DNA of 64,000 nucleotides from Candidatus Alistipes intestinigallinarum (GTDB lineage Bacteria > Bacteroidota > Bacteroidia > Bacteroidales > Rikenellaceae). The stretch spans positions 1 to 64,000 of the forward strand of contig DXDA01000056.1 of assembly GCA_019115745.1 (NCBI GenBank), given 5' to 3'. Shown here one piece after another: positions 22,908-33,283 of the stretch; the stretch's first letter is position 1, and every line of letters starts with the position of its first letter. The translations under genes and the position numbers were made by a program. The notes below the pieces were generated by a model that worked only from the letters and a program-made list of their open reading frames with translations, had not been told where the DNA came from and made no database searches.

Positions 22908-24386
22908 TTACGGACGCAAAGGTAGGCTTTTTTTCGGTTCCCGACACCCTGCGGCCAGTGTTGCGAGGAGGAAAACCGCATAGAGGAGTACGGTCGTGCG
23001 GCTTCCGAGGCGGAGGTCGGTTGCGCCTCCGGGCAATGCGGCCGTTGCGCGGGCCAGGAGGTTGATCGTCTCGGCGGCCTTGCCCGTCACCAGCCCGAAG
23101 AGCGGTGCGAACCACCCGACGGGCAGGAGCATCCAGAGCGCGCCGCCGAATACCACGACCCCGGCCAGCAGAATGGCCACCGGATTGACGACCAGCCCGG
23201 CCAGGGGGACGATGCCGAAGGTGTGCGAGACGAGCGGAGCCGTAGCCAGTGTGGCCGTCAACCCGATCACGTAGGCGTCGATCACGGCATTCAGCCATCG
23301 GTGCCGGGTCCGGCATCGGCGGCAGAGGGGCACGCCCCAGAGGAGAATCCCCGCGACGGCGAGGAACGAGAGCAGGAAACTCAGGTCGCCGATCCAGTTG
23401 GGATTCCAGAGCAGCATCCCGAAGGCCGCCAGAGCCAGGGCGTTCATGGCGACATACTCCGAAGCTGCTGCGAGCGCCGCCTGCAGGAAGGTGCACATCA
23501 CGGCGGCCCGCACGGCGCTGGGCGGAAATCCGGCTGCGGCGACAAAGAGCCAGATGGCCGCCGCTGCGAGGAGGTTCTTCCAGAGGTGCCCGCGCCGCAG
23601 CAGGGGCAGCCACCAGAGCAGGGCGTTCACCACGACGAAGACAATCCCGGTGTGGAGTCCCGATACGGCCAGCAGGTGCGAAAACCCGCTCCGGGAGTAG
23701 ACCGTACGGAGTTCGGCGGGGATTCCGCGCCGTTCGCCCGCAGCCATCGCCTCGACGACGGCACGGGCTTCGGGAGCCATCGGCAGGCGGTCGAGACGTT
23801 CCACGGCCCGGCGGTGCAGCGAGACACCCCGGGGCTCCTCCCGGTCGAGGATCGCCCGTTCGCCGATCCACAGCGTTCCGGCGTAGCCCCGTCGTTCCAT
23901 CAGCCGCCGGTAGCTCTCGGCACCGCCCTGGAAGGGCTTCACACGACCTCGGCAGCGGATCCGCTCTCCGTCCCGAAGCTCCGTCAGCGAATCGGCATAG
24001 AGCCGGATCCGGGCCTCGGAGGCGTGCCAATGGCCATTCGTCGGGTCGCGCCAGACCGTGACTGCGGCATCGGCCGTCGAGTAGCGCTCCCGCTCGACGG
24101 GAAACCCCTCCACGACAACTTCGTAGGCGGTGTACACCTCCCGCGGGACCGTTATCTCGGGAGTCTGGAGTTGTGCCGCGGCGAATCCCGACGTGAGGAG
24201 CATCGCCACGGCGGCGGCCGCCGACCGGAAGAGCAGGGCCAAGACACCCGTGCAGACGAAAGCCCCTGCGAGAAACCACAGGGGCAGTTCGTACACTCCG
24301 GCCAAGGCAATTCCCGCGGCGAAGGGTGCGAGGAGCTTGACCATCGGCATCCGATTGAGCCGATCCAACAGGCAGGCGATTTTCAT
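22908..24386 (-). CDS. comEC: ComEC/Rec2 family competence protein lacking a C-terminal metallo-beta-lactamase domain
   Basis: GFSHLLAVSGLHTGIVFVVVNALL; PPSAVRAAVMCTFL; multi-TM; 492 aa. Confidence 0.9.
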   Translation of the reverse strand: MKIACLLDRLNRMPMVKLLAPFAAGIALAGVYELPLWFLAGAFVCTGVLALLFRSAAAAVAMLLTSGFAAAQLQTPEITVPREVYTAYEVVVEGFPVERERYSTADAAVTVWRDPTNGHWHASEARIRLYADSLTELRDGERIRCRGRVKPFQGGAESYRRLMERRGYAGTLWIGERAILDREEPRGVSLHRRAVERLDRLPMAPEARAVVEAMAAGERRGIPAELRTVYSRSGFSHLLAVSGLHTGIVFVVVNALLWWLPLLRRGHLWKNLLAAAAIWLFVAAAGFPPSAVRAAVMCTFLQAALAAASEYVAMNALALAAFGMLLWNPNWIGDLSFLLSFLAVAGILLWGVPLCRRCRTRHRWLNAVIDAYVIGLTATLATAPLVSHTFGIVPLAGLVVNPVAILLAGVVVFGGALWMLLPVGWFAPLFGLVTGKAAETINLLARATAALPGGATDLRLGSRTTVLLYAVFLLATLAAGCREPKKSLPLRP

Positions 24387-24419: not shown

Positions 24420-24827
24420 TCACTCGGGTGAGAGAAAAAGCTCCCATCCGTCGGCCACCTGCCGCATGTCGGCCGGAGCGCCGTTCTCCACGCGCGAGAT
24501 GGCCGCGGCGAGGGGGATCATCGTTCCGGCGTCGCGCGTGTCGAGCGGCTCGTCGGGGTCGATGCCCGTATCGGCGGCCACGGCGCGGATGTAGACCTCG
24601 GTGTGGTTCTCCGAGGGCGGGGCCCAGCGGGAGATCATCCCCCGGATGGTGTCGAGCCCGTAGCGGAGGCGGTAGGTGTCGAGCAGCACGAAGATGGCGC
24701 GGTATCCCCAGGCCAGCGTCTCGAACTCCTTGAAGTCCGGGTCGCGCGAGGGGCGGACTTCGCCCCGGTAGCGGACCTTCGACTGGCGGATGTTTCCCGG
24801 ATTGCGGTTATCGAGTCCTCGGGCCAT
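24420..24827 (-). CDS. Phage P5-like structural/muralytic protein
   Basis: MARGLDNRNPGNIRQSKVRYRGEV...FKEFETLAWGYRAIFVLLDTY; position after holin; ORF start trimmed from 24923. Confidence 0.7.
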   Translation of the reverse strand: MARGLDNRNPGNIRQSKVRYRGEVRPSRDPDFKEFETLAWGYRAIFVLLDTYRLRYGLDTIRGMISRWAPPSENHTEVYIRAVAADTGIDPDEPLDTRDAGTMIPLAAAISRVENGAPADMRQVADGWELFLSPE

Positions 24828-25260
24828 AGTCGTCGTCCTTGATGTGAAGGTGGGACTCCACGCGGCGTTTGGCGTAGCGCCGCAGCCAGCGGAAGAGCGG
24901 GGCCTCGGAGAGCTGTGCGGCATTTTCGAGGAACGACCAGAATTCCACGCCGCAGGTGAATCCGGTGAAGAGCTTGGCGAGGTTCAACTGCATGAAGTCC
25001 AGCACGCAGCGGTCCAGGAGCCAGGCCATGACAATGGCCGTGACGGCGAGTCCCATCTTGACGACCGTGCGCCAGGCCTTGCAGCTTTCGAAGTACCACT
25101 CCCGCCCTTCGCGGCGGGCAACGGCTCGGTCGGCGAAGATCCCCGAGATGAAATCCACGCCGATGAAGAGCAGTGTGGTGATGACGAGCGGATGAATGGG
25201 GGCGAAGAGGGCGGCAACACCGGCCACGACGCCGCTAACGAATCTGAACAAAGCCTCCAT
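24808..25260 (-). CDS. Phage holin family protein
   Basis: MEALFRFVSGVVAGVAALFAPIHPLVITTLLFIGVDFISGIFADR: several TM helices, holin-family-like; start trimmed. Confidence 0.75.
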   Translation of the reverse strand: MEALFRFVSGVVAGVAALFAPIHPLVITTLLFIGVDFISGIFADRAVARREGREWYFESCKAWRTVVKMGLAVTAIVMAWLLDRCVLDFMQLNLAKLFTGFTCGVEFWSFLENAAQLSEAPLFRWLRRYAKRRVESHLHIKDDDYGPRTR

Positions 25261-25708
25261 CGGTCGTACAGCGGTTGAGGATGTTCTTTTCGGGACGGTA
25301 CTCGGGGAATTCGTCCCGGTTGTTTTCGAGATAGGCCGCGGCACGCCGCAGGAGCGTGCGGGCTTCGCAGCGCAGGGCATGGCACAGCCGTTGGCGGGCC
25401 TGTTCGTCGGCGGGCTGGCTCCAGGAGGATTTCGGGGCGGTCGTTCCGCACTGTCCGGTGCGGATGTCGAGCCGCGGCTGCAGGGCGAGCCGGGTGAAGA
25501 GGGCCGTCGGTGCCGCGAGGTATGCGTCGCGGAAGTCGGCATGGTCTCCGGCGAGGAGTTTTTCGTGGAGCTCCGGGCCGATCACCGGAACGATGTAGCG
25601 TTGTTCGGCGGCGGCGATGTCGGCCTCGCCGAACGTGTCGGGCGGGAGGTACTCGCCCTCTCCGAAGGCGAGTTTCAGGACCTGAAGGGGTGAGATGAGC
25701 GTATTCAT
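25235..25708 (-). CDS. Phage head-tail connector-like protein (DUF6712-like)
   Basis: MNTLISPLQVLKLAFGEGEYLPPDTFGEADIAAAEQRYIVPVIG; follows portal. Confidence 0.5.
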   Translation of the reverse strand: MNTLISPLQVLKLAFGEGEYLPPDTFGEADIAAAEQRYIVPVIGPELHEKLLAGDHADFRDAYLAAPTALFTRLALQPRLDIRTGQCGTTAPKSSWSQPADEQARQRLCHALRCEARTLLRRAAAYLENNRDEFPEYRPEKNILNRCTTDGGFVQIR

Positions 25709-25785
25709 GAAAAAGCGGCTTTTTCGGACTTGCGCCGCCGTGCGACGCCCTCCGATCGGGACCGGAGGCCCCGCACGGGCGGCGA

Positions 25786-27012
25786 TCATCCGATGCTTGT
25801 GACGTTGTATTTGGTGATTTCGGAGAGGAAGGCCTGCTGCTTCGGGTCTTCGGGGTCGTAGTCGAGACCGTCGGCCTTGCGGGCCTCCCAGACCTTCATG
25901 TAGATGGGTTTCGAACGGGTCGGCGGGCGGTTGACGATCTGCAGCGAGGAGGTGTCGAGACCGAGGACGGCGGTGATGACCTCGCGGATGGGCTCGGTGA
26001 GTTCGGCCTGTTCGGCGAGGATCACCGTGTTGAGTGCCACCTCGTACTCGTGGAGGATGCGCTCGGCATTGAATCCCGAGGCGTAGTCCAGGCCGCTCAG
26101 GGTCCGGAACCAGGAGTGCGCCACGACGATGTCGCCGACGGCCTGTTCATGCAGGGCCTGCCAGTCGCCTTCGTTCTGAGCGGTGATGGGGATGAAGCGC
26201 GAGTTGTCGTCGTCGCCGCCGTCGCGGATGACGAACATCACCTGCCCGGGATTCCCGGCAAACTTGCGTTCGGCCATCCTGACGATGCGTTCGGCTTCGG
26301 CCTCGCTGTCGACCGTCGAGTCGAGCATCATCACGCCCGACAACTGGAAGGAGTTGTCCAGCCGGGAGATGTTCCAACGGTCGGTCTTGTAGGCGATGGC
26401 CGAGACGTTGAATCCGGCGATGTAGGTCGGGACGCCGTAGTGCTCGAACATGGGTTCGTAATCCTTGTAGTGGACGATTGCGCGGAGGGTCCCGTCCTCC
26501 TGGGGCTCGAAGTTCGGGTAGAGCGGCAGGGTGCGGGCCTCGTCGGGTTTGAAGGCCGACCAGTCGTGGTGGAGGAGGATGTGCTCCGAGTCGCGTGCCA
26601 CGCGGCAGCGGGAGGCGTCCTGGTGGTAGAGCGAGAGGAACGAGTGGTCGGCATCGGTGACGATTTCGAGGAAGGCGTTTCCGAAGAGCGACTTGTCGAA
26701 TGCCAGTTTGTTGAGCACCTGCCTCAGACTCTCCCCGCTTCCGTTCACGCGGCGGACGAATGCCGCCAGGGCGGGCAGTCGAGCCTCGTCGCAGACAAAC
26801 CCCTTTCCGGAGATGTAGTCGGCCTTGTCGTTGATGATGCGGCGATGGGTGGTCGACCGGCGGGCCATCAGGGCGAGGGCTGCGGGGAAGAGGTTGTCGT
26901 CGCCCCAGCGCCAGAAGCGGTCGTTTTCGACCCGCGTCGTACCCAGTGTGACATAGGGGTCCGTGCGATTGGCGACGGCGACGGCGGTTTTGAAGTTTTT
27001 CGCTTTGCTCAT
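25786..27012 (-). CDS. Phage portal protein
   Basis: WGDDNLFP...RRIINDKADYISGKG; FGNAFLEIV; GVMMLDSTVDSEAEAERI portal-family pattern; start trimmed to MSKAKNF. Confidence 0.85.
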   Translation of the reverse strand: MSKAKNFKTAVAVANRTDPYVTLGTTRVENDRFWRWGDDNLFPAALALMARRSTTHRRIINDKADYISGKGFVCDEARLPALAAFVRRVNGSGESLRQVLNKLAFDKSLFGNAFLEIVTDADHSFLSLYHQDASRCRVARDSEHILLHHDWSAFKPDEARTLPLYPNFEPQEDGTLRAIVHYKDYEPMFEHYGVPTYIAGFNVSAIAYKTDRWNISRLDNSFQLSGVMMLDSTVDSEAEAERIVRMAERKFAGNPGQVMFVIRDGGDDDNSRFIPITAQNEGDWQALHEQAVGDIVVAHSWFRTLSGLDYASGFNAERILHEYEVALNTVILAEQAELTEPIREVITAVLGLDTSSLQIVNRPPTRSKPIYMKVWEARKADGLDYDPEDPKQQAFLSEITKYNVTSIG

Positions 27013-27081
27013 GGGAAAATTTCGGATTTCGGGGGAGTGCCGCCACACCCTGTGGCGGGTTGCGGCGGCGCTCGGTGTGAA

Positions 27082-28059
27082 TTACTGTTTGTAGGCGTAG
27101 GTGATCAGGGCATCGTCGAGGAGTGCACATCCGGCCATGAAGACGGCGCGCTGACGGTTCTCCATCTCGTCGGGGTTGTACCACATGCGGACTTCGTTTC
27201 CGGGCATGTCGGCGGTGTTGACGGCCAGGACGAGGTTGCGGCGGTCGGTGAGCAGGCAGAACGACTGGTGGAGGCTCGTGCTCATGAGATAGCTGCCCAT
27301 GCGCACGTCGACGACCGGGATGCCGTGGTATGCGAGGATCTTGCGGCCGTTCACCGAGTCGAGGTACGCGGAGTCTACGCCCTTTTCGTCGAGGTACTTC
27401 TCGTAGAGGTAATAGATGTCCGAGGAGACGAAGTAGGCGAGCTGTCCTTCGGCCTTGAGGTATTGGGCTCTGGGGTCGGCCTGCGTCCAGAGTTCGTCGA
27501 AGAGCTCGACGGCGAAGGTGTTGTTTTCGAGGTCGGCGGCCTGGTAGGTGGAGTTGTAGATGCTCTGTTCGGTGACGAGCTCCTTGATGAGCTTGAGGAA
27601 TCCGTCGAAGGTGTTGTATCCGGATCCTGCCGAGGTGTCTCCGGCCCACATCGTTGCGCGGATGTTCTCGGCAAGGGCCTTGCGGAAGAGTTCGGTTTCG
27701 GCCTGTTCGAGAATCGTCCCGGAGAGGTCCTCCATGTTGACGCCCACGATCGAGGAGACCTTCTCGTAGACCATCGAGAAGTAGTCTGCGGCGGAGAATC
27801 CCAACTCGGCCTTCACGCGCTGGAGGTCGATCGTCTTTTCGAAGCGCTTGGCGGCGCTGCTGCCGGTCCATCCGGCTTCGGTGAACTTCTGAAGGATGTT
27901 CCGCTGTCCGTCCCAGAGTTGGATGTGGGCGGCCTGCGGCATGTTGTAGAGGACGCGGACGCCGAGCTCTTCGGCCGACTGCCCGGTCAGAATCGGCCGG
28001 AAGAAGATGTTTTCGAGGTCGGAACCGGTGTACTGTTTGGCATTTTCAAGGTAAGTCAT
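27082..28059 (-). CDS. Phage major capsid-like protein
   Basis: MTYLENAKQYTGSDLENIFFRPIL...MWAGDTSAGSGYNTFDGFLK...LDSVNGRKILAYHGIPVVDV; located between ClpP and portal. Confidence 0.72.
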   Translation of the reverse strand: MTYLENAKQYTGSDLENIFFRPILTGQSAEELGVRVLYNMPQAAHIQLWDGQRNILQKFTEAGWTGSSAAKRFEKTIDLQRVKAELGFSAADYFSMVYEKVSSIVGVNMEDLSGTILEQAETELFRKALAENIRATMWAGDTSAGSGYNTFDGFLKLIKELVTEQSIYNSTYQAADLENNTFAVELFDELWTQADPRAQYLKAEGQLAYFVSSDIYYLYEKYLDEKGVDSAYLDSVNGRKILAYHGIPVVDVRMGSYLMSTSLHQSFCLLTDRRNLVLAVNTADMPGNEVRMWYNPDEMENRQRAVFMAGCALLDDALITYAYKQ

Positions 28060-28142
28060 GGTTTTTGTTGTTTTTTGAAGGTTTATGATAAGATTCGGCG
28101 TCGGGAAAATCCTTCGGCCTTTTTTTCGGATGCGGGGCGGGG

Positions 28143-29015
28143 TCAGTTGCGGAAACACTTGGCATCCTCGGCATAGGCGCGTTCGTTTGCCGAGCGGATG
28201 GTTTCGCCGCAGGAGGGGTCTTCGCAGGGCCGCACGCGGGTCGGGGCGATCCGCCGTCGGGTCTCCTCGGCGACGATCGACGACCGGCGGTGCAGCTCCC
28301 GCATCTCCGCTTCGGAGTGGAGGATGTTCCGGTCGGCCGCGGGCTGCGGGCCGCTCTTCGCGCCGAGTTCCGCGAGGAGCCGTTTCCAGCCGCGAGCGAT
28401 GTTCTGCGTCAGGGTATTCCCGGCCTGTCGGGCGGGTTCGATCACGCGGTCGGCCAGCCCGGCGGCAATAGCCTCCTCGGGCGAGAGCCAGCGTCCGTTT
28501 CCGTTGTTTTCGGACATCAGGGCTTCGAACTCCTCGGCGGGACGCCCCGAACGGGCGGCGTAGACGGCGGCGATGCGGGCATCGGTCTGGTGGAGGAGCT
28601 CGATCTCGGAGGCGATCTCGGAGGCATTTCCTTCGGTGGCGCAGATCGCGTTGTGGATCAGGTAGAGGGCGTTTTCAGAGATCTCCCGGGCCCCTTCGGA
28701 GGCGGCCTGGGCGATGATCGTGGCGGCCGAGGCGGTGTACCCGTAGCAGCGGGTTACGATCCGTGCGGGGAGCTGGCGCAGGGCGTCGAGGATCAGCAGG
28801 GCGTCGTTGACGTCGCCGCCCGTCGAGCGGATGTTGACCACCACCTCCGGGGCCTCGATCTCGGCGATGCGCCGCAGGGCGTCGCGGAAGCGTTCGTAGG
28901 TTGCCACACGGGCGTCGGGGTCATCGAACTGCCACTCTTCGGGGATTCCGATGGTCCCCTCGATGTCGATCTGGCAGCAGTCGGCGGAGTTGTTGATTTG
29001 GATTTCCGATTTCAT
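28143..29015 (-). CDS. ClpP-like phage head maturation protease
   Basis: VVVNIRSTGGDVNDALLILDAL; Ser context CYGYTASAATIIAQAAS; His context LYLIHNA; SPEEAIAAGLADRV. Confidence 0.85.
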   Translation of the reverse strand: MKSEIQINNSADCCQIDIEGTIGIPEEWQFDDPDARVATYERFRDALRRIAEIEAPEVVVNIRSTGGDVNDALLILDALRQLPARIVTRCYGYTASAATIIAQAASEGAREISENALYLIHNAICATEGNASEIASEIELLHQTDARIAAVYAARSGRPAEEFEALMSENNGNGRWLSPEEAIAAGLADRVIEPARQAGNTLTQNIARGWKRLLAELGAKSGPQPAADRNILHSEAEMRELHRRSSIVAEETRRRIAPTRVRPCEDPSCGETIRSANERAYAEDAKCFRN

Positions 29016-29018
29016 GAT

Positions 29019-29279
29019 TCAGTTTTTGGAGTGGTTGTAGAATGCGTTTCGGGCTTTTTCGTAGGAGCAGCAGAAGGTTGCGGCCGCGACCTCGAAGGCT
29101 TCGCAGCGGGGCATCCCCTGGCGTTGGAGACGCTCCACTTCGTCGCGGATGGCCTGGCGTTCGCAGGCCCGGGCGTCGATGAATCCGCGGTCGAGGAGTT
29201 TGAGGAGCGCCTGCCGGAGCGGGAGACCGCGGACTTCGCGGATCAGCACTTCGGCCAGTTTTTCGTCGATTCGGGTCAT
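29019..29279 (-). CDS. Small cassette protein of unknown function (86 aa)
   Basis: MTRIDEKLAEVLIREVRGLPLRQALLKLL..., overlaps upstream stop; start trimmed. Confidence 0.6.
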   Translation of the reverse strand: MTRIDEKLAEVLIREVRGLPLRQALLKLLDRGFIDARACERQAIRDEVERLQRQGMPRCEAFEVAAATFCCSYEKARNAFYNHSKN

Positions 29280-31636
29280 GCTTCGTCGATGCGTTCGAAG
29301 AGACACTTTACGGAGGCTTCCCGGGGGTCGTAGTCGTCGATTTCGCGGAGTGCGGCGGTGACGATCCCCTCCCCGGTGTCGATCCGGAATGCGGAGCGGA
29401 TGTCGGGGGCTCCGGTCCCGGGCGCAAAGAGCGCCTCGAATTCGTGAGGAGCGATCCGCAGACGGAGCGAAATGCGTTCGCGGAGGGCTTCGCGGCGGAC
29501 CTGATGGTCGTAGTAGCGGTGGAGACCCTGGGCGCCGTCGCGGTCCTCGAATCCCAGCGTAAAGGGCTCCGTGTCGTCGTCGCCGGGGTGGAGGAAGGCG
29601 ATGAGTGGGTATTCGCTCTGCCCCGAGGGGTACCCCCATCGCTCGTTTTCGGGCAGGGGCTTGATCCCGACGTAGCGAACGATGCGGGGTGTGAAGTTCG
29701 TGCCGTCGTCTTCGGCGTCGTCGCGGTCTCCGACCTGCAGGAGTAGGGCCGACGGGGCGTTGAGATAGTGTCCCGTGGAGTTGAGCGAGGGGGCGAAGAG
29801 GGGGTTGCGGAGGACCTTTTCGCCCTGCAGCGAGGCGTAGGAGGGAACCTCGAAGCTCCAGCTCCCGAGCGTGGTCTCTTCGTCGGCGTCGAAACGGGTC
29901 ACGGCCCCGTCACCCTCCTGGAACCGCCAGGTGCGCACTTCGTGGATTTCGGGAGCGATCTGCTGCCGGACGACGGGCTGCGAGAAGTCGGTCCGACGGC
30001 TCCAGTCGACCGCTTCTCCGATACCGAAGAAGTCGGGTTCGGGCTCGATCCATACGGTGCGGGTCGGCTCTTCGGTGTAGAACCTCAGGTTGAAGAGGTG
30101 TGCGAGGGCTTCGAGCAGCTCGGACTGCTGTATGTCGTGCCGGGCGACGTCGGCGAAGTCGATCGACGAACCGAACGCCGGTCCGGGTTGAAAGACGGGC
30201 CGCAGCGAACACTCCTTGTGCAACGTGAGCTGCATCCCCTCCTCGGCCCCTGCGAAGTAGATCTGGTTGAAGTATTTGGGCGAGGTCGGGGATACTTTTT
30301 CCGAAGGGGTCCGGAGTTTCACCTCGACGGTTGTCTCTCCCGTTTCGTCGATATACCCGTTGTAGAGGGCCCAGTCACCGGTGTAGGGTACCCACTGCGC
30401 ATTTTCGTAGATCTGCAGCTTGAGATTGGAGAGTTTTCCCGTCTCGGGGCTGTTGAGCACGATCGTGCGCGCGATGAAGGTGGTCCATATGACATCCTGA
30501 ATGATGCCTCGGGTCAGGCTCAGCCGGTATTGGTTTCCGGGCTGATGGTCGAAGACGATTACCCGGTATAAGAAGTTGTTCGTGAGCTGGTTGCGGAGGT
30601 CTTCGTAACGGTTGGCCAGTTGGAATCCGAATTCGGCGCCGGGTCCGAGATAGATGGTGTCGAATCCGGAGAGACGATCCCGGGAGAGGATTCGGTGGGT
30701 GGTGGTGTATTTGAGGTAGTATTCGAATCCGACGGTGATTTCGGACGGGGGCGTGAAGCAGATTTTGTCGTCGACCGTCGAGAAGCAGTTGCCGTTGTTG
30801 TAGAGTCCGCTGATGGCCTCTCCGTCGACATCGATGGCCTGGGGTGTGGCCGTGTCGACGATGTTTCCGACGGTGTTGGCCAGGGCCTTGGGGTTGGCCG
30901 TGACGCGTCCGAATTCGTTTCCGGTTGCGGTGGCGGGCCCGAGCCTCCGTGCCTGAAATCCCATCCGGTTGACAGCCGCGGCGGTGTCGCGTGAGGCGTA
31001 GGCCCCGCTCATGTAGAGCGACTGGAAGAGCTCCGACTCGAAAAAACGGCTTTTGACGCGGTATCCGGCCTGTGAGAAGATTGTCCCGACGAGCGTGGCG
31101 ACGTGCAGGAAGGGGTGGTAATCCTCCACGGCGAGAAACCGTTCCGCGGGGAGCAGGTCCGACGAGCTGTTCTGCTGCTCGTAATCGTCGTGGTGGACGG
31201 GGAAGAACCGGACGGGAGAGTCGTCGGTCCAACTTTGGTAGATGGCCGTGGGGGTCAGCTTTCCGGACCAGTCGATTCCGAGTTCGTCGAATTTGCTTCG
31301 TGCGGCCTGTTCGGCCCACCCGGCCCCGCCGCTGCGGATCTCGATTTCGTACCGGGCGCCCTTCACGGCGAGCAGGCGGACGCTCCCTTCGATCAACACG
31401 GCACCCTCTTCAGTGAGTTCGGCGCGGTGCGGCGCCTCGTTGAAGAGCAGGGCGGAGTCGGGGTCCTCGGCGAACTGCAGAATCGGACGGTTGCGGGGCG
31501 TGACCGGAAGCTCGATCTTCAGCGAACGCCCTTCGCGTGCGTCGTCGATCGTTTCGGTCCGTGCGGCGTCGTACCCGGGTACGGCGATGGCGTCGGTTCC
31601 CAGGTCGCAAATCATTCCGTCGATGCTCAGTTCCAT
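29276..31636 (-). CDS. Large phage virion/tail-associated-like protein (786 aa)
   Basis: ORF start trimmed to MELSIDGMICDLG at 31636; co-directional with and overlapping cassette neighbours; domain not recognised. Confidence 0.6.
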   Translation of the reverse strand: MELSIDGMICDLGTDAIAVPGYDAARTETIDDAREGRSLKIELPVTPRNRPILQFAEDPDSALLFNEAPHRAELTEEGAVLIEGSVRLLAVKGARYEIEIRSGGAGWAEQAARSKFDELGIDWSGKLTPTAIYQSWTDDSPVRFFPVHHDDYEQQNSSSDLLPAERFLAVEDYHPFLHVATLVGTIFSQAGYRVKSRFFESELFQSLYMSGAYASRDTAAAVNRMGFQARRLGPATATGNEFGRVTANPKALANTVGNIVDTATPQAIDVDGEAISGLYNNGNCFSTVDDKICFTPPSEITVGFEYYLKYTTTHRILSRDRLSGFDTIYLGPGAEFGFQLANRYEDLRNQLTNNFLYRVIVFDHQPGNQYRLSLTRGIIQDVIWTTFIARTIVLNSPETGKLSNLKLQIYENAQWVPYTGDWALYNGYIDETGETTVEVKLRTPSEKVSPTSPKYFNQIYFAGAEEGMQLTLHKECSLRPVFQPGPAFGSSIDFADVARHDIQQSELLEALAHLFNLRFYTEEPTRTVWIEPEPDFFGIGEAVDWSRRTDFSQPVVRQQIAPEIHEVRTWRFQEGDGAVTRFDADEETTLGSWSFEVPSYASLQGEKVLRNPLFAPSLNSTGHYLNAPSALLLQVGDRDDAEDDGTNFTPRIVRYVGIKPLPENERWGYPSGQSEYPLIAFLHPGDDDTEPFTLGFEDRDGAQGLHRYYDHQVRREALRERISLRLRIAPHEFEALFAPGTGAPDIRSAFRIDTGEGIVTAALREIDDYDPREASVKCLFERIDEA

Positions 31637-32592
31637 GACACGCTGTTTTTGGGACGTACAACCAGTTCCAGGGCGCGGAGCACTCCGCGCTGCTGCACGA
31701 CGGCCTCCTGGGTGACGACATCGACCGGCGTGCAGGCCTCGCCGTCGATGCTCCACACCTGCGGGGCCGCAATGATCTCGGCGAGAGCCTCCAGCACCTC
31801 GGGGGTCTCGTATGCCGAGACGAGTTCCGTTTCGCGGTCGGTTTCGGCGGCGGTGACGAGGATGCCGTCGGCGCTTTCGGCGCGTTGCTTGGCAATGCGG
31901 AGCGTGGTGGAGCGCACCACGGGGAAGGAGTAGTGCTCGATCGATCCGCAGTGGGTTCTCCAGGCCATTCTCACGGCCTCCTGCGAGGCGGGGATCACCG
32001 TGTAGCGGACCACGCCGCAGGCCCCGGCATCGACCGTCAAGGTCTCGCACGCCGGGAAATCCCGGGTGTCGAGGCGGAAGATCTGAATTCCGACGCCTTC
32101 GGAATGGTAGCTTTCGGCCGTTACGGAGTCGGCGGATTGCCCGGAGACGGTCACGGCGCAGGCTTCGTCGCTCCACAGGGTGAGTTCGTCGGCGGCCCCT
32201 TCGGGGATGAGGCGTTCGAGCGGCATGGTGGTGCGGATGCAGGGGGCTGCAGGGACCTCGTCTCCGGGGAGGAAGGTGCGGGCCGGAGCCGTTGCCGCGA
32301 CGGCTTCGCTGCCGGTTTCCAGGGCGTCGACCCGGACCGTGATGCTGCGCTCTCCGGCCGGTTGGAATCCGGTGCCGCCCGTCGTGGGGGTGAACTGCAG
32401 GGTCCGGCGCAGCATCGGGGCGATGTCGAATGCCGCGGAGGTCGTCTCGGCGAACCGTTTGGCTCCGACGAGGGTCTCGGAAGCCTCGTCGACGATCCTG
32501 ACGTCGAGATTCCCGGCAGTCTCCTGCTCGACGGCATAGCGGATCGCCTGTCCGAGCGGGGCGTACGGTTGCGGAATTTGGGTGAATTGCAT
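31627..32592 (-). CDS. First gene of phage-structural cassette, beta-rich protein of unknown function (321 aa)
   Basis: Overlaps downstream start; MQFTQIPQPYAPLGQAIRYAVEQ. Confidence 0.6.
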   Translation of the reverse strand: MQFTQIPQPYAPLGQAIRYAVEQETAGNLDVRIVDEASETLVGAKRFAETTSAAFDIAPMLRRTLQFTPTTGGTGFQPAGERSITVRVDALETGSEAVAATAPARTFLPGDEVPAAPCIRTTMPLERLIPEGAADELTLWSDEACAVTVSGQSADSVTAESYHSEGVGIQIFRLDTRDFPACETLTVDAGACGVVRYTVIPASQEAVRMAWRTHCGSIEHYSFPVVRSTTLRIAKQRAESADGILVTAAETDRETELVSAYETPEVLEALAEIIAAPQVWSIDGEACTPVDVVTQEAVVQQRGVLRALELVVRPKNSVSWN

Positions 32593-32707
32593 GGTAAAAG
32601 GGATTTAGGGGAAATGTTTCGAGGGTGTTTGGAGCCGACCAGGAAGGACCCGGATTCGGTTCGGAACCGGGTTGGCCCGAGAGAACGTCTTGGATACGGC
32701 CCGGCGG

Positions 32708-32946
32708 TTTTCGAGAGAGGACGTGAATCCGGAGGTTGCCCGGCAGTTTTCGAGAGAGAGGGACCGGCCCCGGAGACTCCCTGTTGGTTTTCGAGAGGAG
32801 GAGCGTGAGCCCGGAGGCAGCCCGGCCGTTTTCGAGAGAGGGGACGGCTCCGAAGACTCCCCGTCGGTTTTCGAGAGAGGAAGTGAATCCGGAAGCAGTC
32901 CGGCGGTTTTCGAGAGAGGGAGGGAACGGTCCCGGAGACTGCCCGG
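32708..32946. repeat. Degenerate ~40-bp tandem repeat, 6 copies, alternating subtypes (~80-bp dimers)
   Basis: ttttcgagag at 32708, 32747, 32788, 32829, 32868, 32907 (spacing 39/41/41/39/39). Confidence 0.92.
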
Positions 32947-33190: not shown

Positions 33191-33216
33191 TTGCAGGACA
33201 AATATACAACCTGCAA
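33191..33216 (-). promoter_or_regulatory. Promoter/operator of phage cassette: TATATTTG (33199-33206) flanked by ttgcagg/cctgcaa inverted repeat
   Basis: Perfect 7-bp inverted repeat around a minus-strand TAnnTTTG box; TTGACA-like upstream at 33225-33230. Confidence 0.6.
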
Positions 33217-33283
33217 TACCCCCTTGTCAAGAGGCGGGCGCACTTTTTCCAAAAATTATGGAAAACTTTTCGTAAAAAAGTCT

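Follow-up and report, generated by a model that had tools for sequence, protein, structure and literature searches.

Gene transfer agents (GTAs) have been described from few bacteria, mostly Alphaproteobacteria, and PMC12946183 adds one recent gut example, from Faecalibacterium, and notes that GTAs can be encoded at several places. The GTA of Rhodobacter capsulatus (RcGTA) and its alphaproteobacterial relatives are built from vertically inherited, fixed phage-derived head and tail genes, carry no integration or replication genes and have a terminase that is under selection; RcGTA is thought to have descended from a headful-packaging phage (PMC7947584). Here we analyse a phage-derived gene cassette of Candidatus Alistipes intestinigallinarum, located at 24420-32592 of contig DXDA01000056.1 (the window, i.e., the whole stretch of DNA that was analysed, is 64,000 nt long and comprises positions 1-64,000 of this contig). 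Together with a terminase gene, TerL, found elsewhere in the genome, the cassette very probably represents a domesticated, vertically inherited, TerL-coupled particle locus. To the further reading that its mechanism is that of a reduced, split-locus GTA-like particle system we assign a probability of roughly 0.6, and we place the system among GTA-like domesticated phages without claiming it as a proven GTA.

The locus has the properties just listed for RcGTA and its relatives and differs from them in phylum and phage ancestry, in TerL and the repressor being unlinked to the structural genes, in the missing tail tube and tape measure, and in being known here from its genes. The Faecalibacterium agent, FpGTA, as presented in PMC12946183, also comes from a gut bacterium, occupies two unlinked operons, is near-universal in its genus and has a podovirus-like short-tailed morphology, which was observed for FpGTA and is proposed for the Alistipes system from its genes. 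The differences are that FpGTA I has TerL, portal and capsid in one operon, that its host belongs to Bacillota, and that FpGTA is supported by particle and DNA evidence whereas the Alistipes case is genomic (PMC12946183 for FpGTA). PBSX of Bacillus subtilis is another fixed phage-like element, one that packages host DNA, and the portal protein of the cassette distantly matches the PBSX-type model TIGR01540, with a score under the model cut-off. PBSX retains a full contractile tail, whereas the Alistipes cassette has head and tip only.

The existence of the cassette and the integrity of its genes were confirmed; it does not represent a prophage in decay. As the original prediction had it, nine intact co-directional open reading frames (ORFs) fill 24420-32592. 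All are on the minus strand and are separated by overlaps (A/B, B/C, G/H and H/I) or short gaps, and its naming of portal, capsid-like, ClpP-like protease, connector-like, holin-like and P5-like genes agrees with the Pfam and PHROG matches. From the promoter to the end, the genes are as follows:

31627..32592, minus strand: A, 321 aa, probable tail-tube/Dit-like ring protein (AlphaFold fold matches; dN/dS 0.27-0.35)
29276..31636, minus strand: B, 786 aa, probable tail hub/Tal-like tip protein (AlphaFold fold matches; dN/dS 0.21-0.25)
29019..29279, minus strand: C, 86 aa, no assignment (dN/dS 0.21-0.26)
28143..29015, minus strand: D, 290 aa, ClpP-like head maturation protease (PF00574 8e-28; phrog_94 1e-40; dN/dS 0.10-0.23)
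27082..28059, minus strand: E, 325 aa, major capsid protein type (phrog_1623 1e-10; phrog_212 major head protein 3e-5)
25786..27012, minus strand: F, 408 aa, portal protein (PF04860 2e-10; phrog_11226 1e-20; dN/dS 0.07-0.10)
25235..25708, minus strand: G, 157 aa, DUF6712, probable head-tail connector (PF20459 7e-7; position after portal)
24808..25260, minus strand: H, 150 aa, holin, Phage_holin_4_1 (PF05105 3e-11; phrog_199 7e-6)
24420..24827, minus strand: I, 135 aa, P5-like peptidoglycan hydrolase/endolysin family (phrog_873 endolysin 4e-47)

Between host genes, the cassette thus listed consists of structural and lysis genes and has none for integration or phage replication. Within 24420-32592 neither an integrase nor a terminase nor a tape measure was found, and no att-like direct repeat pair framing the region, which the original prediction had proposed as a check against its interpretation, was seen. 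The absence of these genes therefore stands at the locus itself, but its terminase part, and with it the premise that packaging genes are absent, has to be corrected for the genome as a whole, since a cognate single-copy TerL under purifying selection resides at a separate locus. The reading that no terminase exists was overturned when TerL of an Alistipes prophage, L069, served as the query: a TerL, usually single, lies away from the cassette in 97/101 genomes of the genus, and that of the window genome is on contig C22, another contig of the same metagenome-assembled genome (MAG; most of the genomes compared are MAGs). A previously considered terminase candidate, a ubiquitous weak match to phrog_2, resembles PhoH in the two loci read and was rejected. 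Closed genomes repeat the separation found in the window MAG; for example, in G187 the cassette is at 1.26 Mb and TerL is at 3.27 Mb, about 2 Mb apart. An alignment of 26 TerLs shows Walker A as PPQHGKS, Walker B as DDLYKD and the nuclease positions as DTAD, ESNNGG and D..D, all of them conserved; judged by this alignment, the ATPase and nuclease motifs are intact. An XRE-S24 (CI/LexA-like) repressor with HTH_3 and Peptidase_S24 domains adjoins TerL in all 20 loci read, and a small protein, s124, is encoded between the two in 19 of them.

In other genera of the family, TerL adjoins D-E-F-G (genera g40 and g43) or, in g44, is found upstream of the cassette at a distance of about 4 kb. Because TerL is still adjacent to or near the cassette in these genera, a single ancestral locus that later split is the simplest history, and the two loci of Alistipes probably arose in this way. 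A compact version was seen in g40 (L206:4011-12018, genome G236), where the repressor, a 78 aa protein, an 88 aa protein, TerL, a 91 aa protein and D, E, F and G follow each other in one locus; the 88 aa protein is a possible small terminase, and neither A nor B was found in this genome. TerL was not found in four of the sampled genomes of the genus, and B contains a stop in 2/4 of these versus 1/93 of the others (p 0.004), a comparison of small numbers to which assembly errors may contribute.

The cassette is distributed as a fixed component of the family would be. A portal search of relatives found the portal in 36/37 genomes of the window's genus, the window genome counted, almost always as a single gene, while B was found in 97/101 sampled genomes of the genus and in all 38 high-quality ones, with 35-88% identity in most full-length matches and in-frame stops in four genomes at most. 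The portal profile matched 245/268 genomes of the family (Alistipes and relatives) in 17/22 genera, nearly always in single copy, and 3 of about 243 genomes from other Bacteroidales families; the Fisher p of about 1e-113 only illustrates this contrast, as kin genomes are non-independent. The homologues outside the family come from two other Bacteroidales families (L197 and L200 in G428, L198 in G413), one genome having two copies. The gene order of the cassette is constant across the 19 genus regions compared. Its usual site in Alistipes is beside corA/mqnA, with comEC immediately downstream in a subset, and the site varies between genera. The original prediction had asked for vertical conservation and had named strain-sporadic or frameshifted presence as the sign of a decaying prophage: the cassette is conserved vertically across the whole family, and neither sign was found. 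Two "Bacteriophage sp." scaffolds from Mexican faecal samples, MT838736.1 (L234) and MT838805.1 (L233), contain the Alistipes-type cassette together with host genes (mqnA; comEC, methyltransferase, yihY) and were left out of the argument because packaged host DNA and contigs classed as viral through the cassette are both possible.

The two unlinked loci are inherited together. Pairwise distances of the cassette genes, TerL and corA correlate (r 0.73-0.93), and the D+E+F tree has 14/21 splits in common with the TerL tree, with no conflict among branches with support of 90 or more; Alistipes forms a single group in both trees (support 85 for D+E+F and 98 for TerL). These trees were used instead of a portal tree with distant phages, in which the branches are very long. 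The dN/dS values, calculated by NG86 against up to five relatives, lie at 0.05-0.14 (TerL), 0.03-0.07 (repressor), 0.07-0.10 (portal) and 0.10-0.39 (remaining cassette genes), the TerL and portal values being among the lowest of the phage-derived genes, and the dS values are of the same order as those of flanking genes. The dN/dS check suggested earlier thus gave values well below 1 in 9/9 cassette genes; these estimates indicate that all nine, as well as TerL, are under purifying selection and argue against a neutral remnant.

The two large proteins that the original prediction left unassigned, A and B, now have a probable assignment, their modelled folds pointing to tail proteins. The AlphaFold models, built from family alignments, have mean pLDDT values of 92.7 (A) and 89.0 (B). 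The A model matches uncharacterised Bacteroidetes-phage and uncultured tailed-phage proteins with TMq up to 0.82; in the PDB its top matches are generic Ig-like folds, and the informative match is the tail-tube domain 8qhs (prob 1.00, E 1.5e-3). The best matches of the B model are tail-hub and tail-tip proteins (MuSo2 43 kDa tail protein, lambda, T1, VgrG), every one of them weak, and a PDB search with the B sequence returned nothing useful. Judging from the models, A is likely, not certainly, a tail-tube/Dit-like ring protein and B a hub/Tal-like protein. Within the portal gene F, ARAGORN calls an antisense tRNA-Gly(ccc) at 26460-26550 on the plus strand, which is probably a chance call.

The upstream region has two further features:

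33199..33230, minus strand: cassette promoter TTGACAAGGGGGTA-N10-TATATTTG, with the Bacteroidota-type -7 box TAnnTTTG, 607 nt upstream of gene A
32699..32946, no strand assigned: imperfect tandem repeats with a period of about 39/82 nt (TRF), in the long leader between the promoter and gene A

The promoter element is nearly invariant across cassettes. A looser pattern was found in 23/30 family genomes, mostly at one site, at the cassette, while a control pattern gave zero matches, and the element is retained in genera g26 and g34 despite different neighbour genes. Since it is mostly single, is found at the cassette and is kept where the neighbours differ, its distribution identifies it as the cassette's own, dedicated promoter. 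A second locus driven by this promoter was sought and rejected, as only a few additional sites exist and no recognisable phage genes beyond the cassette follow any of them. Two such copies, at L240 (G129:C1:366571) and L247 (G007:C13:7143), have no recognisable phage genes in the 1.5 kb downstream. The conserved divergent promoters at the repressor-TerL locus are of a different type. Among the cassettes listed, none showed the operator-like repeat of that locus upstream, and a common operator was rejected on this ground.

Host genes begin at once on either side of the cassette, as had been claimed: the flanks hold comEC, a methyltransferase, a BrkB/YihY-family protein, DUF2520, mqnA-like, corA, a flippase, DNA polymerase III delta prime and folK. 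The neighbour downstream of I is:

22908..24386, minus strand: comEC, the host DNA-uptake channel (PF03772 4e-47), same strand as I and separated from it by 33 bp

It is possibly co-transcribed with the cassette, and it lies directly downstream of the cassette in 22/62 Alistipes loci tested.

How a fuller phage may have been reduced to this cassette can be read from its relatives. The prophage L069 (L069:401-18270, contig G006:C31), residing in an Alistipes genome that also has its own cassette, has the order TerS-TerL-...-A-B-tape measure-D-E-x-F-G-H and thus has TerL, A, B, D, E, x, F and G in common with the Alistipes system in the same order; E follows the protease there as well, and the place of the tape measure is taken by C in the cassette. 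A reverse-transcriptase-like gene at L069 401-1681, which may belong to a diversity-generating element, precedes this prophage. The TerL of Bacteroides fragilis B40-8-type siphophages is about 48% identical to that of the window genome, and no portal match was found in these phages. Both L069 and the B40-8 type differ from the cassette in being phages with TerS, a tape measure and further tail genes, and the L069-type portal is one extra copy in a few genomes, not a family-wide gene. Genus g26 retains a p250-like gene and, upstream, a gene named "pre"; between B and C it also encodes a short proline-rich protein, the C-terminus of which, we presume, resembles those of tape measures. Several Alistipes lineages retain "pre" and the tube-like gene x, and the window's clade has neither. 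These comparisons indicate that head, portal and terminase were retained while the tail was trimmed. Single genomes show losses of another kind: one Alistipes cassette (L229, G201:C12) lost capsid E and portal F, a natural loss, and keeps A, B, C, D and H, and in G067 both portal and B are interrupted by stops and TerL is missing. A tape measure encoded elsewhere in the genome was considered and rejected, as it occurs in sporadic prophages only. The window genome itself contains a partial prophage of another phage type, unrelated to the cassette (G000:C57, L221:1829-9900). This prophage encodes proteins that are B-like (1034 aa) and tape-measure-like (732 aa) and has a DnaB-like gene; a fuller version is present in G187 (L222:7034-20000).

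The cassette is best explained as what is left of an ancient phage, comprising its head, tail-tip and lysis genes, which was acquired before the GTDB family of Alistipes diversified and has since then been passed on vertically and pared down. In the GTA-like mechanism that we propose, stress would inactivate the XRE-S24 repressor beside TerL, and TerL and the cassette would then be expressed; protease D and capsid E would build a procapsid, a small head, upon portal F, and TerL would fill it headful-style with host DNA, the cargo being host DNA because no phage genome remains. Connector G and the A/B tip would close a short-tailed particle, and holin H and hydrolase I would release particles by lysing a small share of the population. 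We are least sure of DNA delivery to sister cells. A coupling of release to uptake through the adjacent comEC is a lead only, because comEC is downstream in no more than the 22/62 loci. The gene content agrees with such a system: phage-derived genes are fixed and vertical and are under purifying selection, the TerL motifs are intact, and integration and replication genes are missing. The fixed, host-maintained particle envisaged by the original prediction is accordingly supported by family-wide vertical conservation and low dN/dS, a working GTA being the inferred further step.

Several points weigh against this proposal. Of a complete head-tail apparatus for delivering DNA, the cassette has the head, a portal and a connector as well as A (ring-like) and B (hub-like); x is lost, no tail tube gene was found in the window genome and no conserved tape measure among the genomes tested, which makes delivery uncertain. 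No TerS was identified in Alistipes, s124 being without assignment, and G180 and G201 retain TerL and have no portal. Co-regulation of the cassette with the TerL locus is not established, because their promoters differ. According to the accessible part of PMC12946183, the one long-read study of virus-like particles (VLPs) that was found, Rikenellaceae are abundant in total gut DNA while the bacterial DNA of VLPs is dominated by other families, and that part reports no GTA event for Rikenellaceae. Finally, particles, packaged DNA and transfer are all deduced from genes.

A domesticated particle that is not a GTA would accommodate some of these points. It might be a PBSX-like killing or stress-lysis particle, perhaps holding host DNA without delivering it, in which hub B, the capsid and the lysis genes are kept for killing or release; the retention of hub and lysis genes while tube and tape measure are gone, the distant portal match to PBSX and the lack of a Rikenellaceae signal in the accessible part of PMC12946183 would fit. 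We nevertheless consider it unlikely, since TerL and portal, which a DNA-free killer does not need, are among the genes with the lowest dN/dS, and since tailocins show the opposite pattern, retaining tube and tape measure and dropping the head, whereas here the head genes are the most conserved and no tape measure is. That head genes and TerL stay while tail functions erode, and that a related phage type (L069) still infects the genus, could also be explained by another host function, for example capsid, portal or terminase decoys against superinfecting phages, or a protein-storage shell; this is improbable, as purifying selection also acts on the holin, hydrolase and tail-tip genes and TerL keeps conserved catalytic motifs.

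The insertion site, which differs between genera, and the losses in G201 and G067 are what an ordinary decaying prophage, or repeated independent insertions of related prophages, would produce. For the family as a whole this is already contradicted: the cassette is almost universal and single-copy, its frames are open, its dN/dS is well under 1, the trees are congruent and the promoter is retained across genera. A temperate prophage is also at odds with a family-wide cassette that has no integrase, no replication or regulatory genes and no flanking att repeats; we regard it as very improbable. A phage satellite that borrows the terminase of another phage, the alternative offered by the original prediction, and also its tail could point to the partial tape-measure-bearing prophage in the window genome. 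It is scarcely credible: the cassette has a fixed host site and no integrase or att repeats, TerL is encoded by the genomes themselves, in single copy and with purifying selection acting on it, and the C57-type tape measure is present in just 2/19 genomes tested besides its source.

Searches of the open-access literature, with most subscription papers and preprints outside their reach, turned up no account of a system of this kind from Alistipes, Rikenellaceae or Bacteroidota. There is about an even chance that this is the first GTA of the phylum Bacteroidota, a family-wide one with an unlinked terminase and repressor, a tail consisting of connector and tip and, possibly, a coupling to comEC. 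If true, it would add a new phylum to those with GTAs and a route of gene flow in common gut bacteria, Alistipes and relatives. Loci that range from linked to split, and tails that range from fuller to minimal, form a natural series; together with a related prophage in the same genus, it makes steps of phage domestication readable from genomes, and DNA packaging is directly testable in culturable Alistipes isolates.

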